From assembly GCA_012513815.1 (NCBI GenBank), contig JAAZBM010000010.1:1-64000 (forward strand): a stretch of DNA of 64,000 nucleotides. The letters are read 5' to 3'. How positions within the stretch are numbered: position 1 is the first letter of the stretch; each line of letters starts with the position of its first letter. Under the pieces are notes generated by a model. It was not told where the DNA came from. It searched no databases and worked only from the letters and a program-made list of their open reading frames with translations. Below are positions 5,293 through 43,477 of this stretch, in pieces. Both the position numbers and the translations under genes were made by a program. Source of the stretch: Candidatus Sumerlaeota bacterium (GTDB lineage: Bacteria; Sumerlaeota; Sumerlaeia; Sumerlaeales; Sumerlaeaceae).

Positions 5293-5350
5293 TCTCCTTC
5301 ATTCGCTGATTGTCTCTCAAATACTACCACAAACGCGGCGCATTTACGCC

Positions 5351-6886
5351 TCACTCCACTCCCTGACGGAACGGCAACGCCGGCAAACCTTCCGCGCTGT
5401 AAAGATTGCACAGCGGGAAATTCGCCCAACCATAACGCACAATCTTCGGGTCGGTCACATAACGGTGGAAGCTAAGCTCAACCTTGTCCTTGCCCTTAAT
5501 CTTAGCCTTAGCTGTGACGAACATACCATCCGAACCACAAACCTCAAAACCGCTCAAATCATCGCCACTCATGATATGCTTATCCAGTGTCACCGTCGTC
5601 GATTGGAGACTACTGCCGACATTGTCAAAAGTCAACAGAATAGACTGCTTATCCTTCGACAGTTTCGCGCTCTTCACGATTGGTCCGCTGCCGTGGGCAT
5701 CCTTACGCCCATAAACCAGATTCAGAACCGCCGAACTCATGCGCTCGCCCAGAGGAATCTTGAACGGCGGATGAATATTCTTTTCCTGTCCAAGGTCCAT
5801 CGCCGAAATCGCCGCGACATTCTTCACCTTTGTCAGCGTCTTTATTTGCTCATCACGCAACGTACTATACGGCGGATTGTCCGGACCTTCCTTGGCATCC
5901 ATAAATCCGGCAAGCACCACATAAACAAACGGCATATCGGGTTGATGCCATCTTGCCCGCCACGTGCTAATCATCGTCGCAAACAAATCACTATAATGTG
6001 TCTTGCCATAATCGGTAAACCCGGCATCCGTTTCGCCCTGATACCACACAACGCCCTTGATGGGAAACTTGTGCAGAGGCGCGATCATCCCATTATAAAA
6101 CAAACTCGGCTGATGAGGGTTAGGCGTTTTGTCGTTGACCATATCGAGGAACGGACGCAACAACGACGAATCACTCATGATTTCGCGAGGCGTCCACGCA
6201 CGCAACATCGAACCGCCAACAGCGCTATAAATCAACCCAATAGGAACACCGACTTCGGGTTGAAGATTCTTCCCGAAATAATAGCCCAACGCGGAGAATT
6301 CGTAATTTGCGTCCTTGTCACTCGTTCGCCAATCGCCACCAAACTTATCGTCGTTCTTCTTAATCTCGTCTTGCGGTTGCTCGGCATTACAGTGCTTCAC
6401 AACGAACAAACGCAAATCCGGATTCACAGCGTCAAAACTCGCGGTCGTAACAATGTCAGGAAACTGAGTATGGTAATAGACCACACGTGTGTCCATATTC
6501 GACTGACCGCCACAAAGCCAGACATCACCCACCGCCACATTCTTCAGTTCAACGGTATGCGTACTGCCGGACACTTTCAGCGTCAATCCCGTCGCCGCCG
6601 AGCGCTTATTCAGCAGGGCGCGCCATTCACCATCACTACCCGTGGCGACACTTGTCGAATCGCCATCCATCGACACTGTAATCATCTCATTGGCATCGGC
6701 AACACCACGAACAACAATCGGCATATCACGCTGAAAAACCATATTATCCGTATATAGATTATTCAGCACAACATCGGCTCCCGAACTGAATGACATCGTC
6801 ATAAAGACTGATAACAAAGATACTATTGATAAACGCATAAGCGAACCCTTTGAGTTTTTATAATTTGTTGCGCACAACTGACCCAC
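5351..6886 (-). CDS. Sialate O-acetylesterase-family (SASA) protein
   Basis: VWLCGGQSNMD, GVVWYQGETDA; secreted N-terminus. Confidence 0.85.
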   Translation of the reverse strand: MGQLCATNYKNSKGSLMRLSIVSLLSVFMTMSFSSGADVVLNNLYTDNMVFQRDMPIVVRGVADANEMITVSMDGDSTSVATGSDGEWRALLNKRSAATGLTLKVSGSTHTVELKNVAVGDVWLCGGQSNMDTRVVYYHTQFPDIVTTASFDAVNPDLRLFVVKHCNAEQPQDEIKKNDDKFGGDWRTSDKDANYEFSALGYYFGKNLQPEVGVPIGLIYSAVGGSMLRAWTPREIMSDSSLLRPFLDMVNDKTPNPHQPSLFYNGMIAPLHKFPIKGVVWYQGETDAGFTDYGKTHYSDLFATMISTWRARWHQPDMPFVYVVLAGFMDAKEGPDNPPYSTLRDEQIKTLTKVKNVAAISAMDLGQEKNIHPPFKIPLGERMSSAVLNLVYGRKDAHGSGPIVKSAKLSKDKQSILLTFDNVGSSLQSTTVTLDKHIMSGDDLSGFEVCGSDGMFVTAKAKIKGKDKVELSFHRYVTDPKIVRYGWANFPLCNLYSAEGLPALPFRQGVE

Positions 6887-6915
6887 GATTTCAGCGACCT
6901 TACAACACCGCCCGA

Positions 6916-8448
6916 TTACTCGAGCTCGAAACCAGAAATCTCGACGGGCGTTTGCGGTGGAGACGAATAGACTTCGATCTCATTACATATGGCCCACTGA
7001 TAGAAGGGGAATGTGTAAACCACATAACGGGCGGAATACTCATTCGAGGTCGTCAACCGATAAATGGCATAATTCGTCGACTTGGACTCATTATTCGTCA
7101 TCAGCCCCAAATCCACATTACTTACGCCATTCGAAACCATAACACGAACAGAATCAGACTTAAGAGCCGGAACCGCGGCCCCATCAGCATGAATCATAAT
7201 CAACCGAAAATCTGTGAGACCTTTTTTTACCTCACCTAAGTCAAGCGTAATCGTCAGTGTTCCCGCATTGGAAGTATCCCACCAACCGACCATATCACCC
7301 TCGCCGCCCTGAACATAATCGATTGACCACTTGCCATCCGTGAGCTTCGTCATATTCGGGTCGGGATAGATGGTACTTGGCGCAAGGCTATAGCTATAAC
7401 TCTTGCCAAGAGACTCATTGACAAGAGTCTCTTTTCCCTCAAGGTACCGTTTATAATTGCAATTAAACGCAAACGACTTGGGAGAATACGTCGGCGAACA
7501 ATACTGCCAAACCCAACACACAAAATGGTCAACATAAGGCGCTTCTATTGCGAGCTGGGTTTTGACACGGGAAAAATCCGGCGGAGCATACTCAGCGGCA
7601 CCAATCGTAAACATCTCTAAATCCGACCAGAATTGGCGACCCGTCGCGTCGCAGGCGGCACGTGTAGCCGCGAAATATCGCTCAATCACCTCAAACGTAT
7701 TGAGCGTATTCGCGCCAATGCCATCCTGAACAATAATCAGATCCAGATTCGGACACGCATTCAAAATCGTCGTCCAAATCGATTGCCATTCGGCAGGCTG
7801 AGCATAAGCACTGTTCGAATTGTAAAACGGAGCATCCGAAACAATGAGACTGGAACGCAAACTCTTAATATGATTGCAAATCGGATTCAGAACACGATTC
7901 GTCAAAACGCCCAGAGCCTTCTCTGTCCGATAATTCGCGTTATCAATCTCCTGCGGCAAATACATCCCTTTCAGCGAAGAGTGCCCGCCATAGCGAGCAA
8001 ACAACTCATTGGCAACAATCGTACTGGTCGAAACAAGTTCCTCGGGATACGAAGTCTCCGTCAACGCCCAATTCCACTTGAACCAAGTATCCTCATCAAT
8101 CACCAAACCAAGATGGACATCCATCTCCTCCGCGTCTGCCGCGTCCATCATATTATCGAAATCCGTTGCGGCCGTCGCTGACATCGTCATCCCCGGAATA
8201 TTCGTCGGATAATAAGACTTCATTATGCTACTATTAATAGTATGCCGCATGATAACCGTCCTCATCCCGATATCCTTCATCTGCTGGAATTCATTGCGCC
8301 AATCTTCAACCGAATAACCAAGATATGGTTCCGGCGTCAGAAAGCCGCCGCCAAGACGCGCATCGGTCGCCGCCGTAGACAAAACGCAAGGCAAACACAA
8401 AAGCAGAACGAACAATATCCCTATGGACTTCAACATAACTTGACTCAC
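6916..8448 (-). CDS. DUF4434-type secreted protein
   Basis: GGGFLTPEPYLGYSVEDWRNEFQQMKDIGMRTVIMRH with signal peptide MLKSIGILFVLLLCLPCVLSTAA; TIM-barrel-like core and a C-terminal beta-rich domain. Confidence 0.65.
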   Translation of the reverse strand: MSQVMLKSIGILFVLLLCLPCVLSTAATDARLGGGFLTPEPYLGYSVEDWRNEFQQMKDIGMRTVIMRHTINSSIMKSYYPTNIPGMTMSATAATDFDNMMDAADAEEMDVHLGLVIDEDTWFKWNWALTETSYPEELVSTSTIVANELFARYGGHSSLKGMYLPQEIDNANYRTEKALGVLTNRVLNPICNHIKSLRSSLIVSDAPFYNSNSAYAQPAEWQSIWTTILNACPNLDLIIVQDGIGANTLNTFEVIERYFAATRAACDATGRQFWSDLEMFTIGAAEYAPPDFSRVKTQLAIEAPYVDHFVCWVWQYCSPTYSPKSFAFNCNYKRYLEGKETLVNESLGKSYSYSLAPSTIYPDPNMTKLTDGKWSIDYVQGGEGDMVGWWDTSNAGTLTITLDLGEVKKGLTDFRLIMIHADGAAVPALKSDSVRVMVSNGVSNVDLGLMTNNESKSTNYAIYRLTTSNEYSARYVVYTFPFYQWAICNEIEVYSSPPQTPVEISGFELE

Positions 8449-36705: not shown

Positions 36706-37755
36706 ATGAATATCCGCGCAAACATCTTTCTAACGATTGCGGTAGCAGCAACACTACTGCTGACGGCTTGTGCTGACAACAACAAAATAATCCTCCCAAA
36801 CGACCCGATTGGCCGACCCATCATCGGACTTATTCTCAAAAGCATCACAGCCACAACCACGCAGAGAATGTTGGTGAATACGGTCGAATACCAAAAGAAA
36901 AAGAACACCTTCAACATCATCATCGAAGGCACTGTTACGCCTAATAGCGTCGCAAAACAGGAAGAACTCGTTCGAAAGATGATTGAGGCCGGTGTCGACG
37001 CGATTGTCATCGATCCCATCAACCGAACCACCGCACTAAAAGAACTCAAAAAAGCCATCGACAAAGGCATTCCCGTCGTCAACATTGACATCCCATTCGA
37101 CAAAAAAACCATGGAAGCGCTCGACATCGATATCCCATACATCGCGCCCGACAACGAGAAAGCAGCCGAAAACATCGCCGACTATGTCATATCCAAAATG
37201 GGAGACAGCAACGAACTCATCATCCTCGAAGGAATGCCACAAACGGCACTCGGAGAAGAGAGAACGAAAGGCTTTATCAAATCAATTGACAAAAACAACA
37301 AGACGCTCAACAGCATATACCTCGTGCCATGGTCGGATAACGAAATAAAAGAAATTCTCAAAAAAGCGCTGACGGCGCACCCAGGAACAAAAGCTGTCCT
37401 GACATGCACCGACACAATTGCATTCTACGCGTGCCAAGCAATCAACGACCTCGGCCTCACCGGAAAAGTCCTCGTCGGAACAATCGGCTATCAGCACAAA
37501 TCGATACAGAGCCTCATCACCAAAGGCAAAGTAACAGCCGCCGCAAACCTTCACCATGACAAATACGGAATTGACGGAATCGAACTTGCCCTCAACCTGT
37601 TAGCCGACCGCGAGCACTCACTCGACGACGTCAGGACATCGACAACCATCATCACCGCGAAAAACGCGCCGGTCATGTCGATGCAAACATCAGATGAGAC
37701 CACAAATCCTGACGACGAATCCAAAAACACGACACCATCAAAACGCAAAAACTAA
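36706..37755 (+). CDS. Sugar-type periplasmic binding lipoprotein (LacI/ribose-binding fold)
   Basis: Lipobox LLLTAC; IIGLILKSI, EAGVDAIVIDPINRTTALKELKKAIDKGIPVVNIDIPF, AVLTCTDTIAFYACQAINDLGLTGKVLVGTIGY. Confidence 0.85.
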   Translation: MNIRANIFLTIAVAATLLLTACADNNKIILPNDPIGRPIIGLILKSITATTTQRMLVNTVEYQKKKNTFNIIIEGTVTPNSVAKQEELVRKMIEAGVDAIVIDPINRTTALKELKKAIDKGIPVVNIDIPFDKKTMEALDIDIPYIAPDNEKAAENIADYVISKMGDSNELIILEGMPQTALGEERTKGFIKSIDKNNKTLNSIYLVPWSDNEIKEILKKALTAHPGTKAVLTCTDTIAFYACQAINDLGLTGKVLVGTIGYQHKSIQSLITKGKVTAAANLHHDKYGIDGIELALNLLADREHSLDDVRTSTTIITAKNAPVMSMQTSDETTNPDDESKNTTPSKRKN

Positions 37756-39116
37756 CGCCGACGAAAACGCGGATAAACGCTCCCTGACGCAAGCTCCCAC
37801 ACATCGGCAAAATCCCAACCCTTAAAAATCTCACGACGACTAAAAACGCGTGTTTCAAATCCCAAACCAGCATCGGAACGGCTTATACCGGAAACCTTTG
37901 TATCCCAAAAACAATTCGCCACACGTCCGATATTCAGCCCCGCGAAGCCACCCGTATAATCTCGGCCCTCAACCAAAACAGAAGCATAGCTGTTACTCAC
38001 AGAACCATTATTATAACCAACCAAACCGCCGACTTTCTGCTTGCCCAAAACCGTAGACCCTAATGCGTAACAATCGCGCACCACACCATTCTGATTCAAA
38101 CCGACCAAACTCCCCACACTGTTGCTCCCCCAAAAACTGCTATTCTCAATTCCAAGATGACGAACCTCACCCGAAGAAACACACCCGAACAACCCGACAC
38201 CGGTCACAAATTCCGGCATCGAAATATGCACATTCGTGACGACCTTTCCATTACCATCGAAAAAGCCACAGAAACCTTGCCCTTGCATATTCGTGCCAAT
38301 CGGCAACAGCAACTGACGCACACGCACTGCCCGCCCTCGCGACGCCGACGCCGACTCCTCCGGCGACAACTTCTTCGTGACACTGCCATCAATATCACGC
38401 ACCATCCGATAATGCTTGCCACGCGTCGCCTCATTCCCAAGCGTACACTGCGCCGACAACCACGCCAAATGCCCAAGCTCCTCGATAATATACGGGTCAG
38501 CCGCCGAACCACTACCATGAATCGGCACAACAGCAGGCACAAAAATCGTCGATGGTGCTACCACCACCCGTGGCGCCACCCGCGGCCGCCGCTTCTTGAC
38601 CAAAACGCCCGACGAAACCAGACTCCCTGTCGACACCACAGGCGCAACCGGAGCAACCTCCGCAGGCGGCGCGGCGATGGCAACCGTCGTCCCCGAAGAC
38701 TCATGTTCAATCTGTTCCTCCGCGGACAAAATCGAACTAATCGTCGGAGTCGTCACCGTCGACGAAGAAACAACATCAGCCACCGGAGACTGCGCCCCAT
38801 CAGGTCGAAGCGCGTCAACCAACTCCTGATTATGCGCGTTTCGCATTGCGCGCACATTACGGATGCCATCGAAAAATCCAACATTCCCCTCCGCCCGAGG
38901 TTCAACAACCGACGGCGAAGTCCGTGACGTATTGGGAGACAAAAAATATACTGCCGCAGCAACAAGCACCGCTACCAAAACTATAAACGCGAGCGCCAAC
39001 AAAACCCGAGACAAAGGACGTCGTGAAACTGAAGGTTCATCCTCTTCACAAACAGGACAAACCTCAAGACCATGATAATCAATCGGATACCAACACTTTT
39101 CACAAAACCTTTTCAT
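37752..39116 (-). CDS. Membrane protein: N-terminal zinc ribbon, TM helix, extracytoplasmic GLUG domain
   Basis: MKRFCEKCWYPIDYHGLEVCPVCEED zinc ribbon; TM VLLALAFIVLVAVLVAAAVYFL; GLUG motifs VGSLVGLNQNG, VGGLVGYNNGS, TGGFAGLNIG; start inside the supplied ORF. Confidence 0.75.
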   Translation of the reverse strand: MKRFCEKCWYPIDYHGLEVCPVCEEDEPSVSRRPLSRVLLALAFIVLVAVLVAAAVYFLSPNTSRTSPSVVEPRAEGNVGFFDGIRNVRAMRNAHNQELVDALRPDGAQSPVADVVSSSTVTTPTISSILSAEEQIEHESSGTTVAIAAPPAEVAPVAPVVSTGSLVSSGVLVKKRRPRVAPRVVVAPSTIFVPAVVPIHGSGSAADPYIIEELGHLAWLSAQCTLGNEATRGKHYRMVRDIDGSVTKKLSPEESASASRGRAVRVRQLLLPIGTNMQGQGFCGFFDGNGKVVTNVHISMPEFVTGVGLFGCVSSGEVRHLGIENSSFWGSNSVGSLVGLNQNGVVRDCYALGSTVLGKQKVGGLVGYNNGSVSNSYASVLVEGRDYTGGFAGLNIGRVANCFWDTKVSGISRSDAGLGFETRVFSRREIFKGWDFADVWELASGSVYPRFRRR

Positions 39117-39227
39117 ACTATGACTTACAAAACAACAACAAACATTGTGTGTTTTCCAAAATGTTATTAATAGCATCATGTAATTTTTTAAAAAGATGTT
39201 ATCGGAATTTGCCAGTCGGAGGGCAAG

Positions 39228-40949
39228 ATGAAACCGTTTGATGAAAACATTACGAAGCTCATTAAGTCACGCTATCCTATTATCTACGTACACACATGGG
39301 AAGAAAACAGGCTCATCGATACTGTCAAGGAAGTTGTCGAAAAAATCCGTAACGAAACCGTAAACAAAACGGATCGCAAAATCTATCTCTGGAGCTCAAC
39401 AAAAGGCATCGTCGAAACTCGACGCAAAGAAGGCAACGCCGAAAGCGAAGAACAAATCAAAGACACGCAAGACATCCTGAAGGCGCTGACGCAAGTCGAG
39501 CGGTGCACCAACAACGCAATCTTCATTTTCAAAGATATGCACCAATACTTCGGATACTGCAACAGACCACCCGACAACGAAGTCATCAGAAAAATCCGCG
39601 ACCTCGTCCCGACAATCCAAGAAGGAACATCCGCATTCATCACGCTCATCTTCGTCTCGCCGAGCCTCGTCCTACCGCAAGAACTCCAAAAAGATGTGAC
39701 GGTGCTCGAATTCCCGCTGCCCACATTCGACGAAATCATGGAAATCCTCAACGGCATCATCGAGGACCACAAAGACCTTCCGCACGTACACATCGACCTC
39801 AACAAAACGCAAAGTGAGCAACTCGTCCGTGCCGCAATGGGACTAACGAGTTCCGAAGCGCGGCGAGCCTTCATGAAAGCAATTGTCGGAGACAAAACCC
39901 TCAGCGTCAAAGATGTCGACATCATCCTCGAAGAGAAACAGCAAATCATCAAGAAAAGCGGAATCCTCGAATTCATCAACTCCGAACTCAAAATCGAAGA
40001 TGTCGGCGGCCTCGAAAACCTCAAGGCGTGGCTCCGAAAAAGAAACAAGTCATGGCTCGAAGACGCCAAGAGATACGGCGTCCCCGCGCCCAAAGGCGTC
40101 CTCATCACCGGCGTCCCCGGCTGCGGAAAAAGCCTCGTCGCCAAAGCCATCAGCACCATGTGGCAAATCCCGCTACTCCGCCTCGACGTCGGCCGCATTT
40201 TCAGCGGCATCGTCGGCAGCAGCGAAGAGAACGTCCGCAACGCCATCAGCACCGCCGAAGCGATTGCCCCGTCCATTCTCTGGATTGACGAAATCGAAAA
40301 AGGCTTCAGCTCCTTCGGCGGGCACAACGGCGACAGCGGAACATCAAGCAGGGTATTCGGCACGTTCCTCACATGGATGCAAGAGAAAACAAAACCCGTC
40401 TTCGTCATCGCGACAGCCAACAACATCGAAACGCTCCCGCCCGAATTCCTCAGAAAAGGACGCTTCGACGAGATTTTCTTCGTTGACCTTCCCACCAACA
40501 ACGAGCGACAAGACATCTTCAAGGTTCACCTTGACAAACGCCTGCTCAACAAAGACGGAACACCCAAAGAACCCGAAGTCATGGGCAACTTCGAAATCTC
40601 GCAGACCGTCCTCTCGAATCTCGCCGAGCTTACCGAAGGTTTCGTCGGTGCCGAAATCGAACAGATTGTCATCACGGCGCTTTTCGAGGCGTTCGCCGCC
40701 AACAGAAGCATCACCTATGACGACCTCAAAAAGTCGATTCAAGACACCGTGCCTCTTTCGATAACGCAGGCGGAACGCATCATCACCATTCGCGAATGGG
40801 CAAACGCCCGGGCCGTCGCCGCAACGAGAAGAGAAGACCTCGTCGGCTACAGCACCGAAAGCCCCGAAACGAAAAACGAAACCAAGGAAGCGGCAACCAA
40901 CGACGTCACCAAGAAGCGCGGTGGAAGATCGCTCACGGTCGATATGTAG
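39228..40949 (+). CDS. AAA+ ATPase, Ycf46-like
   Basis: N-terminal SRYPIIYVHTWEENRLI; Walker A GVPGCGKS; Walker B ILWIDEIEKGF; GRFDEIFFVDLP; layout as in Ycf46-type ATPases. Confidence 0.85.
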   Translation: MKPFDENITKLIKSRYPIIYVHTWEENRLIDTVKEVVEKIRNETVNKTDRKIYLWSSTKGIVETRRKEGNAESEEQIKDTQDILKALTQVERCTNNAIFIFKDMHQYFGYCNRPPDNEVIRKIRDLVPTIQEGTSAFITLIFVSPSLVLPQELQKDVTVLEFPLPTFDEIMEILNGIIEDHKDLPHVHIDLNKTQSEQLVRAAMGLTSSEARRAFMKAIVGDKTLSVKDVDIILEEKQQIIKKSGILEFINSELKIEDVGGLENLKAWLRKRNKSWLEDAKRYGVPAPKGVLITGVPGCGKSLVAKAISTMWQIPLLRLDVGRIFSGIVGSSEENVRNAISTAEAIAPSILWIDEIEKGFSSFGGHNGDSGTSSRVFGTFLTWMQEKTKPVFVIATANNIETLPPEFLRKGRFDEIFFVDLPTNNERQDIFKVHLDKRLLNKDGTPKEPEVMGNFEISQTVLSNLAELTEGFVGAEIEQIVITALFEAFAANRSITYDDLKKSIQDTVPLSITQAERIITIREWANARAVAATRREDLVGYSTESPETKNETKEAATNDVTKKRGGRSLTVDM

Positions 40950-40974
40950 CGCAAATATACGGAGGTAAAAGAAC

Positions 40975-41739
40975 ATGTCATGCGTCGTCATCGGATTCCC
41001 AATCGGACTCGCAATGTGGACAGCAATCGCTGCCGCATCAACACCTAAAGTGGTGCAAACATCAAAGGAAATATACAAAGACTGGCTCGCGTCAACTAAA
41101 CTCGAACTACCGACATCGTTCCGAAGCAGCAAGGAACTCATCAAAGTCGTCCAAAAGTGCGGATACGACTGCGTCAAATGGGACGGCCGATACAAAACCG
41201 AAATCAACGGAACGGTCATCTTTTGGGAAAAAATCTTCGGACGATGGCACGCCGTCTCCGCCTCATACGACGCCCCCGTCGTCAGGAAATTCGTCGACAG
41301 AGTCAACGACGAAATGAAGATGGAAATCTTTAACATGGACAAGGCGAAAAAGGCTCTCGAAGAGAGCGAAAAGGCGGCCTCACGCCTCTGGACGACCAGC
41401 TTCACGGACGGCGATTTGCTCATCAAAGCCCTCGCGGACAAAGGCTTCTCCGCCAAACCGGATCCCGACGGCAACATCATTTGCGCCGTGGACGCCAAGT
41501 CCGCGCTCTGCTTCAGGCCCGTGGAAAACGGCCCATACTCCGTCGAAGTCAAGAACATCGACGACCTCAGCCAAGTCCATCGCGAGCTTGTCGAACTCGA
41601 CGGCCACTACAGACAGCTCATTCAACAACGAACGGTGCAGAACATCAAGAACAGAGCAAAGTCACGAAACATGACCATCGAATCGGAAACGGTTATGCAA
41701 GACCAATCTGTCGTCATCGTGCTCAACGTAGAGGAATAA
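40975..41739 (+). CDS. DUF1257 (Ycf35)-like protein, apparently with a tandem domain duplication
   Basis: C-terminal half SFTDGDLLIKALADKGFSAKPDPDGN...CFRPVENGPYSVEV...VQNIKNRAKSRNMTIESETVMQDQSVVIVL resembles DUF1257; linked to Ycf46-like and DUF2997 genes. Confidence 0.65.
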   Translation: MSCVVIGFPIGLAMWTAIAAASTPKVVQTSKEIYKDWLASTKLELPTSFRSSKELIKVVQKCGYDCVKWDGRYKTEINGTVIFWEKIFGRWHAVSASYDAPVVRKFVDRVNDEMKMEIFNMDKAKKALEESEKAASRLWTTSFTDGDLLIKALADKGFSAKPDPDGNIICAVDAKSALCFRPVENGPYSVEVKNIDDLSQVHRELVELDGHYRQLIQQRTVQNIKNRAKSRNMTIESETVMQDQSVVIVLNVEE

Positions 41740-41751
41740 AGGGCGAACTCT

Positions 41752-42531
41752 ATGGATAACGAATCGCGATTCGACCAATGGCAACGGCGACTTGACACCG
41801 ACGAAAAACAACTGGTATCTTTTTTCGACACAAAAGTCACCGCCTCGGACACTGTCTTTATCTTTCCCGACATCCCACCGGAAGTCTGGAAACTCACGCT
41901 AAATATCCCGGTCAGTAAGGACACGTGCGTTCTCGCCATCATCCTCATGTTCCTCGACGACTTCGACGGAACAAACGCCCTCATACTCACGACGAACGCG
42001 TTATGCCTGCGACAAAAAGCAAGAACGGTGACGTACCCTTACCAGACCAGCGCCGGAACTCAAGTCCCCGACGACATCATCGGAAAGATTAAAACAAAAT
42101 ACCCCGCGATTGCGGAATTTCTCGCGACCGTTACGGCGCCCGAATACGTCACGAACTTCCACAAGACGCTCCCGCACCAAAGTAGCACAAGCTTCCCGCT
42201 GATGCAGGACACACCCGACACGAACAACCTGCCATCCGCCCTCGAGAATTCACCCGCCACAAAACTCGACCCGACTCTCTCGTTCAGACTTGACCTCAAC
42301 AACGCGACCCTCGACGACCTACTCGAAATGCCCGGATTCTCGCTCGTCACGGCGCAATCGTTCATCAAAGAGAGAGACCGCCGCCACGGATTCGCCTCAT
42401 ACACCGACATCGGCGAGTTCCTCGACCTCCAGCCGCACCAAATCGAAAAACTCAGAATGGAAACGACTCTAAACCCAATGTCGGACAACACCATTTCAAA
42501 GGCCTCAAAAAGGGCCATCGTTGACTATTAG
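41752..42531 (+). CDS. Protein with C-terminal ComEA-type helix-hairpin-helix domain
   Basis: DLNNATLDDLLEMPGFSLVTAQSFIKERDRRHGFASYTDIGEFLDL matches ComEA-like HhH; N-terminal domain not firmly identified. Confidence 0.7.
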   Translation: MDNESRFDQWQRRLDTDEKQLVSFFDTKVTASDTVFIFPDIPPEVWKLTLNIPVSKDTCVLAIILMFLDDFDGTNALILTTNALCLRQKARTVTYPYQTSAGTQVPDDIIGKIKTKYPAIAEFLATVTAPEYVTNFHKTLPHQSSTSFPLMQDTPDTNNLPSALENSPATKLDPTLSFRLDLNNATLDDLLEMPGFSLVTAQSFIKERDRRHGFASYTDIGEFLDLQPHQIEKLRMETTLNPMSDNTISKASKRAIVDY

Positions 42532-42542
42532 GAGACAACACT

Positions 42543-42797
42543 ATGGCAAAGAAGAAAATCAAAATTCAAGTCATGAGCGACGGAATGATTCACACGGAAG
42601 TCTCGGGCATTAAAGGGAAAAAATGCATGGACTACATCAAAGTCATTGAAGAACTTGCGCAGATGACGACTATTCATTCTAAAGCGACTAAAGAATATTA
42701 TGAACCGGAAGACAAGGTTTATCTTACTCCGTCAACCAATCAAACGAAAACAGAGGATGTCTTGCCCACTGTTCAGCAACAGAACAAAATGGAGTAG
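42543..42797 (+). CDS. DUF2997-family small protein
   Basis: KIKIQVMSDGMIHTEVSGIKGKKCMDYIKVIEEL; 11-12 nt spacing within the operon. Confidence 0.7.
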   Translation: MAKKKIKIQVMSDGMIHTEVSGIKGKKCMDYIKVIEELAQMTTIHSKATKEYYEPEDKVYLTPSTNQTKTEDVLPTVQQQNKME

Positions 42798-42808
42798 GAC
42801 CGCAACTC

Positions 42809-43477
42809 ATGAAGAGCATTGAAAAAGGCAATACTGTTCTTCGCGTACATCAATACCTCCCGAGAACCGAAGCCGAAGGACCCGGTGTCAGAGCATGCGT
42901 CTGGGTACAAGGATGCTCAATTCACTGCAAAGGATGCTTCATGCAAGAAGCATGGGACCCAAATGCCGGCAAAGAATACGACGTAGAAGAACTCGCAAAT
43001 GACATCCTCGCGCAAAAAGACATCGAAGGCCTAACCATACTCGGCGGCGAGCCTTTCGACCAAGCCCACGCCGTCGGACTACTCGCATCAATCATGCACG
43101 TACACGGCCTATCCGTCATGACTTTTACCGGCTACAAAGTCGAAGAACTCTGGATGAAAAACGACACCGACGTCAACGCCCTACTCAACGCCACGGACCT
43201 GCTCGTTGACAGCCCGTTCATTCTCGAACTCGAATCGAACGACAGGCCATGGGTTGGCTCATCGAACCAGCGCTTCCACTTCCTCAGCAGCAGATACATC
43301 GACCTCAAGGACTCGCTACACACAATCAAAAACAAAATCGAAGTCCGCATCGACAAAAACGGACAATACAAAATCAACGGCATGGCGAGTAAGAAAATCC
43401 GAGACGAGATGTTTGACAAACTCCGCTGCCCCCAAAATAACTCAATCCCAATATCTGAGCCTAAACCGAGAGAATAA
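42809..43477 (+). CDS. Radical SAM activating-enzyme-like protein (NrdG/PFL-AE-like)
   Basis: GPGVRACVWVQGCSIHCKGCFMQEAWD (CxxxCxxC), LTILGGEPFDQ, VMTFTGYKVEEL. Confidence 0.85.
   Translation: MKSIEKGNTVLRVHQYLPRTEAEGPGVRACVWVQGCSIHCKGCFMQEAWDPNAGKEYDVEELANDILAQKDIEGLTILGGEPFDQAHAVGLLASIMHVHGLSVMTFTGYKVEELWMKNDTDVNALLNATDLLVDSPFILELESNDRPWVGSSNQRFHFLSSRYIDLKDSLHTIKNKIEVRIDKNGQYKINGMASKKIRDEMFDKLRCPQNNSIPISEPKPRE

Follow-up and report, generated by a model that had tools for sequence, protein, structure and literature searches.

A probably mobile operon of a Ycf46-like AAA+ ATPase, DUF1257- and DUF2997-type proteins and a radical SAM protein as a candidate remodelling module

AAA+ ATPases of the p97/CDC48 type possess C-terminal docking tails. 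The AAA+ protein Ycf46 and the DUF1257 protein Ycf35, both conserved among cyanobacteria and plastids, are of obscure function. According to Jiang 2015, as cited in PMC7496141, a functional link of Ycf46 and Ycf35 consists in altered activity of the carbonic anhydrase EcaB and altered CO2 use in Synechocystis. The Synechocystis cluster DUF2997-ycf35-fed7 has a ferredoxin alongside (PMC4284462). Here, we describe a five-gene operon (positions 39228-43477, + strand) from Candidatus Sumerlaeota. It lies in a window of 64,000 nucleotides, the whole stretch of contig JAAZBM010000010.1 that was analysed. The operon encodes, in this order, a Ycf46-like AAA+ ATPase, a tandem DUF1257-type protein, a helix-hairpin-helix (HhH) protein, a DUF2997 protein and an NrdG-like radical SAM protein. 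The list of open reading frames and the sequence confirmed the co-directional arrangement, with intergenic gaps of 25, 12, 11 and 11 nucleotides, that a preliminary description of this DNA had given. The parts belong to known families, and the set is a variant of the poorly understood Ycf46/DUF1257/DUF2997 group: a compact form, non-photosynthetic and in part carried on plasmids, which has an enzyme, a putative adaptor and a short shared peptide. The reading that we favour, held with some reserve, is that of a mobile subtype of a remodelling module, which would combine Ycf46-type AAA+, DUF1257, DUF2997 and radical SAM proteins with a shared docking peptide. The libraries and the open-licence literature searched contained no described system matching the module; this literature also yielded no description of the combination, of the radical SAM exchange or of the shared peptide, and no functional paper on the module.

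Sets like that of the window, comprising the AAA protein, the tandem DUF1257, HhH and DUF2997 proteins and the NrdG-like radical SAM protein, are named type II in this report. A total of 85,462 species genomes were scanned for the AAA protein, and the loci were then searched with the other proteins of the window. The type II module occurs in at least six bacterial phyla, two Betaproteobacteria having AAA and HhH alone. All five genes, in varying order, are present in a Planctomycetota genome (L010), in rumen Clostridia of the Bacillota (L014, L015), in one more Clostridia genome and in five Chitinophagaceae of the Bacteroidota (L016-L020); they are also carried by actinobacterial plasmids of Paenarthrobacter, Rhodococcus and Arthrobacter. 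A further type II locus of rumen Clostridia (L012) is interrupted by a contig end. The best segment shared by the window AAA and a Planctomycetota homologue is 59% identical. The recurrence of the five genes across further phyla shows that the operon is not a product of chance. The preliminary description was right about the gene identities, the operon and a coherent, undescribed module.

In a quick maximum-likelihood tree of the AAA proteins, with support from the Shimodaira-Hasegawa-like approximate likelihood ratio test (SH-aLRT) and no bootstraps, the window sequence lies in a clade of mixed phyla (SH-aLRT 96, or 86 once the plasmid sequence is included). Its family relatives (G002, G004) are found in another clade. 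Since the window AAA clusters across phyla and apart from its own family relatives, the cassette is probably horizontally mobile, transfer being the simplest reading of these relationships. The spread is patchy, only 5 of 150 Chitinophagaceae having an AAA homologue of any kind. This patchiness, the carriage on plasmids and the presence of related AAA, DUF1257 and DUF2997 genes in phages would suit a module for phage defence or plasmid conflict, and a stress or defence role had been suggested previously. However, PADLOC gave no specific match but only generic ones to IetA/TRIP13 AAA domains and to the viperin (radical SAM) fold, and the operon contains no nuclease, toxin or nucleotide-signal gene. 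The suggestion was not supported, and we consider a defence function quite improbable.

The AAA and HhH proteins of type II loci share a terminal peptide. The AAA C-terminus has the form GGR-x-[ILV]-[DE]-[FY]-COOH and follows a low-complexity linker, and a peptide close to R-x-[ILV]-[DE]-[FYL] ends both proteins in all 16 type II loci (the window, where it is deviant, L010-L020, L114, L138, L139 and L174). For example, one pair of tails reads RGGRSIEF (AAA) and GGGRVIEY (HhH), and the pair of the Rhodococcus plasmid reads RGGRTFEF and SPGRRLEF. None of 493 background open reading frames matches the narrower tail pattern. The wider pattern matches 68 of 1345 open reading frames of at least 100 amino acids, about 6-8 of which are, by reading of the list, neither AAA nor HhH or other partner proteins. 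The sharing of the peptide by AAA and HhH is new with respect to the preliminary description, as are the mobility and the exchange of radical SAM families described below.

Terminal peptides of the general form R-x-Phi-x-Phi also occur outside type II, and in two other subtypes, of Chitinophagaceae and Clostridia, they co-vary between AAA and partner. We name type I the set that the family relatives of the window genome share with most loci of Planctomycetota and Verrucomicrobiota. In type I AAA proteins, a low-complexity linker leads to the ending RR[KM][ILM]E[LIMF]-COOH. Type I TPR proteins (e.g. L008, 7534-8313) carry RFxxLEF right after the start codon in nearly all loci examined, which perhaps represents a signal related to the AAA tails. 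In type III loci of Chitinophagaceae, a distant AAA (~33% identity) has a ...KRSIII-like end, and the adjacent protein a ...GRKIIF-like one. This type III operon (L135, L136, L137, L141) encodes proteins of ~155, ~570, ~65 and ~178 amino acids and the distant AAA; the last two of this row are those that share the peptide in the Chitinophagaceae loci. In Clostridia, an AAA tail ...TRQIRFKK is accompanied by two partners beginning with QRVIRFKK or QRVIRFKR, and a tail ...RRTIKYDD by partners beginning with RRKIRFEN, NRRIKFEE and NRKIIFSE. The N-terminal peptide of the partners in L175 and L176 is likewise the one near the AAA C-terminus. The terminal position, the flexible linker and the occurrence of the same peptide on ATPase and partner would also fit degrons or substrates recognised by the AAA protein; the HhH protein would then be an unfoldase substrate and the AAA tail an autoinhibitory pseudo-substrate. 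We regard this as improbable: in the Clostridia the motif stands at partner N-termini and is internal in one AAA tail, which is more docking-like, and the operon encodes no protease. The tail was also considered as a substrate of the radical SAM protein; this is disfavoured, since Betaproteobacteria keep the tails without a detected radical SAM protein of these families.

Three radical SAM families, namely NrdG-like, PflX-like and MiaB-like, were found beside the AAA/DUF1257/DUF2997 core. In type I, a PflX/COG1313-like radical SAM gene comes first and AAA second, with genes for DUF1257, DUF2997, a membrane protein with a zinc ribbon, a TPR protein and a PilT-like ATPase after them; the radical SAM protein matches Pfam Radical_SAM, and its PflX/COG1313-like label was assigned by reading. 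One Planctomycetota genome contains both operons, type I and type II, each of them complete, and the two are therefore distinct systems. In the Clostridia loci L175 and L176, AAA has as neighbours a DUF1257-DUF2997 fusion protein and a MiaB/RimO-like radical SAM protein (TIGR00089, E 1e-52 and 1e-62, under the cut-off). That the radical SAM families swap while AAA and the DUF proteins stay is also compatible with a different division of labour, in which the radical SAM or Fe-S protein would be the client, and AAA with DUF1257 and DUF2997 a chaperone for the assembly, repair or activation of a radical or Fe-S enzyme. The ferredoxin found instead in the cyanobacterial DUF2997-ycf35-fed7 cluster (PMC4284462) and the Hsp70/GrpE neighbours of related AAA proteins point in the same direction, as does the loss of ycf46 and ycf35 in red-algal plastids, which tracks habitat alongside ycf34 and the heme oxygenase gene pbsA (PMC5940233). 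On the other hand, many of the AAA homologues stand alone, and in the genomes of two type II-clade loci no radical SAM protein of these families was detected. We take the client explanation to be a serious rival, if an unlikely one.

In the remodelling mechanism that we propose, the AAA ring would remodel a protein target using ATP, and the DUF1257 and DUF2997 proteins would partner the ring and hold either the target or the enzyme. The radical SAM protein (by analogy, the ferredoxin in cyanobacteria) would bring Fe-S chemistry to the target, and the HhH protein would act as an adaptor whose variable N-terminus determines where the ring is placed. Ring and adaptor would be addressed by their common ending R-x-[ILV]-x-[FYL], which lies past a flexible linker and may dock in a common pocket. 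This pocket would most simply be located on AAA itself, because no other component occurs in every subtype that has shared peptides. A protein-remodelling role is proposed because AAA homologues adjoin Hsp70/GrpE genes and lie within a phage-tail-like locus of Treponema; related AAA genes lie next to Hsp70 genes, once with GrpE, and elsewhere next to an Hsp70-like gene. It is possible, albeit rather doubtful, that these modules constitute an undescribed class of AAA+ machines, in which ring and adaptors addressed by a shared, clade-specific R-x-Phi-x-Phi peptide would recruit at least three radical SAM families to a remodelled protein, plastid Ycf46 and Ycf35 being reduced descendants. The shared peptide provides a concrete handle on the working of the Ycf46 family, and partner, docking site and client are testable in culturable Chitinophaga, Rhodococcus and Arthrobacter.

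Several observations weigh against the proposed docking and remodelling. The tails of the window itself are imperfect: the AAA tail GGRSLTVDM (40920-40946) departs from GGR-x-[ILV]-[DE]-[FY], the consensus in the clade, and its counterpart in the HhH protein, identified in an alignment of HhH C-termini, is KRAIVDY (42508-42528). Among the AAA loci, 53 combine a tail with radical SAM, DUF1257 or DUF2997 neighbours and 26 are solo without a tail, with 4 exceptions; this link is largely phylogenetic, the informative independent pairs agreeing in 4 of 4 cases (p 0.125). The type I locus L060 contains the genes and lacks the tail. The Betaproteobacteria L011 and L013 keep AAA and HhH with their tails and not the rest of the set, and a search of their genomes revealed no NrdG-like radical SAM protein, PflX-like radical SAM protein or DUF2997. 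Radical SAM protein and DUF2997 are therefore not obligatory. Furthermore, the confidence of the structure model of the HhH protein is limited to the HhH domain, the N-terminus being modelled with low confidence. Finally, complex formation, docking, remodelling and target modification are steps that we infer from the patterns described above.

Gene 1 (39228-40949, +, 573 amino acids) encodes a single-ring, CDC48-like protein with one AAA+ domain, as deduced from profile and structure-library searches (PF00004, E 3e-31; AAA_lid_3, E 9e-8). Its Walker A motif GVPGCGKS (40110-40133) and Walker B motif ILWIDE (40275-40292) are conserved in alignment A2. The libraries contain no Ycf46 model, and the name given in the preliminary description is upheld, as Ycf46-like, by full-length similarity to an AAA protein of a Pseudanabaena plasmid (43.7% over 92%, the N-terminal region included) that adjoins DUF1257 and DUF2997 genes, which constitutes the cyanobacterial linkage. 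The gene row on this plasmid (L140) is GrpE, Hsp70, DUF1257, an ABC-type ATPase, DUF2997, AAA and a WD40 protein.

The tandem DUF1257-type protein encoded by gene 2 (40975-41739, +, 254 amino acids) had been read as a duplicated DUF1257. The AlphaFold2 model supports this reading in structure, as both halves of the protein have a predicted topology of beta-alpha-beta4-alpha. The second repeat (residues 139-252; 41389-41730) is homologous to DUF1257 proteins in a profile-profile comparison (hhalign 97%, E 4e-11), whose 11 reference members all match PF06868. The first, putatively DUF1257-like repeat (residues 42-114; 41098-41316), in which the predicted local distance difference test (pLDDT) of the block is 83-93, is weak by sequence: the two halves match each other at 32% (E 5e-4), and the first half has no sequence match to type I DUF1257. 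No match to PF06868 in the gene 2 product was obtained with hmmscan, and 3 of 10 type II gene 2 members match it weakly (best E 0.01). The second-half homology thus supports a DUF1257-type protein that is not a Pfam-filed member. Candidates for its fold from the PDB were pseudo-symmetric proteins, S-adenosylmethionine decarboxylase and TATA-binding protein, and were discarded as uninformative (TM-scores ~0.2).

The HhH protein (gene 3; 41752-42531, +, 259 amino acids) was identified as predicted, with a PF12836 (HHH_3) score of 28.2 bits, just above the cut-off of 27 (E 2e-6). Its ComEA-type HhH_3 domain comprises residues 180-235 (42289-42456; pLDDT ~95). The N-terminus of HhH proteins varies, with membrane helices in most loci, a GYF-like region in Planctomycetota and no recognised domain in the window. 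For the DUF2997 protein (gene 4; 42543-42797, +, 84 amino acids), the assignment was equally confirmed (PF11211, E 2.9e-10, 40.3 bits at a cut-off of 24.1); Gly25 and Cys28 of its GxxGxxC motif (42606-42626) are invariant in 15 sequences.

Gene 5 (42809-43477, +, 222 amino acids) codes for an NrdG/PflA-like protein, in agreement with the previous assignment (Fer4_12, PF13353, E 1.5e-34; structure 3c8f of the pyruvate formate-lyase activase, E 2e-9), although its 111.7 bits against TIGR02491 (NrdG) are under the equivalog cut-off of 126.1. The cluster motif C-x3-C-x2-C (CSIHCKGC; 42914-42937) and GGEP, marks of the radical SAM superfamily, are invariant in alignment A6. It is a member of this superfamily, with catalysis predicted from the sequence. 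Past the NrdG core, A6 shows a C-terminal hairpin, NKIEVRIDKNGQYKINGM (43328-43381), that is faintly reminiscent of the DUF2997 hairpin; homology to DUF2997 was rejected (hhalign just 49% over 16 columns), and the likeness remains a hint. The NrdG/PflA fold and the CxxxCxxC motif would be consistent with activation of a glycyl-radical enzyme, as proposed earlier. However, the genome has its own canonical NrdD-NrdG pair elsewhere, for which reason gene 5 was also rejected as a duplicate NrdG, and 6 of 9 genomes with the full operon contain neither PF01228 nor PF13597 (NrdD) proteins. These are the operon-bearing Chitinophagaceae and the Planctomycetota genome, the latter being a metagenome-assembled genome and possibly incomplete. 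On both grounds, glycyl-radical activation is hardly credible.

Shine-Dalgarno-like sequences lie ahead of genes 1, 2 and 4, and a scan of the operon for promoters and terminators gave signals not clearly above chance. The GC content of the operon resembles that of its surroundings. Just upstream is the start of a divergent 475 amino acid protein (37752-39179, - strand) that contains GLUG repeats and resembles a zinc ribbon at its N-terminus.

Further AAA genes were observed in other settings. A plasmid of Treponema succinifaciens (L115) encodes a Ycf46-like AAA (tail VRKLEM; 6076-7500) and an NrdG-like radical SAM protein (5345-5953), which adjoin the baseplate V and hub-like genes in an injection locus that resembles a phage tail. 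Conjugative or resistance plasmids of Polaromonas, Acinetobacter, Moellerella and Leisingera (L116-L119) carry a different operon with a non-orthologous ATPase and similar parts: a large AAA, a PIN protein, a ~370 amino acid protein whose C-terminus is DUF2997-like (E 5e-3 in one), a ClpB-type AAA and an NrdG-like radical SAM protein. In Rhizobium and Pseudomonas phages (L120, L121), AAA, DUF1257-like and DUF2997 genes are located upstream of replication genes that include DnaB, and mycobacteriophages also carry AAA homologues. A search of viral contigs with the radical SAM protein as query gave no match.

Compared to known systems, gene 1 has the AAA ring fold and a functional-looking C-terminal peptide in common with p97/CDC48-type AAA+ proteins; it differs in its single AAA domain, its other tail and a partner bearing the same tail. 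Gene 5 shares the radical SAM core with NrdG, the activase of anaerobic ribonucleotide reductase, and is 38% identical to the genome's own NrdG; the score below the NrdG cut-off, the extra C-terminal hairpin and a position not beside nrdD set it apart. The AAA, DUF1257 and DUF2997 families are common to the window operon and the cyanobacterial and plastid Ycf46-Ycf35-DUF2997 set. In contrast, the other partners in the cyanobacterial sets are a ferredoxin or else Hsp70/GrpE and WD40 proteins, and their DUF1257 is not tandem; the Pseudanabaena locus is without the NrdG-like radical SAM protein, the HhH protein and the shared tail. The type I module differs by the PflX-like radical SAM gene upstream and, in place of HhH, has the genes named above for the zinc-ribbon, TPR and PilT-like proteins. 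It shares with the window operon an AAA with a C-terminal peptide (in its type I form), DUF1257, DUF2997 and a radical SAM protein.

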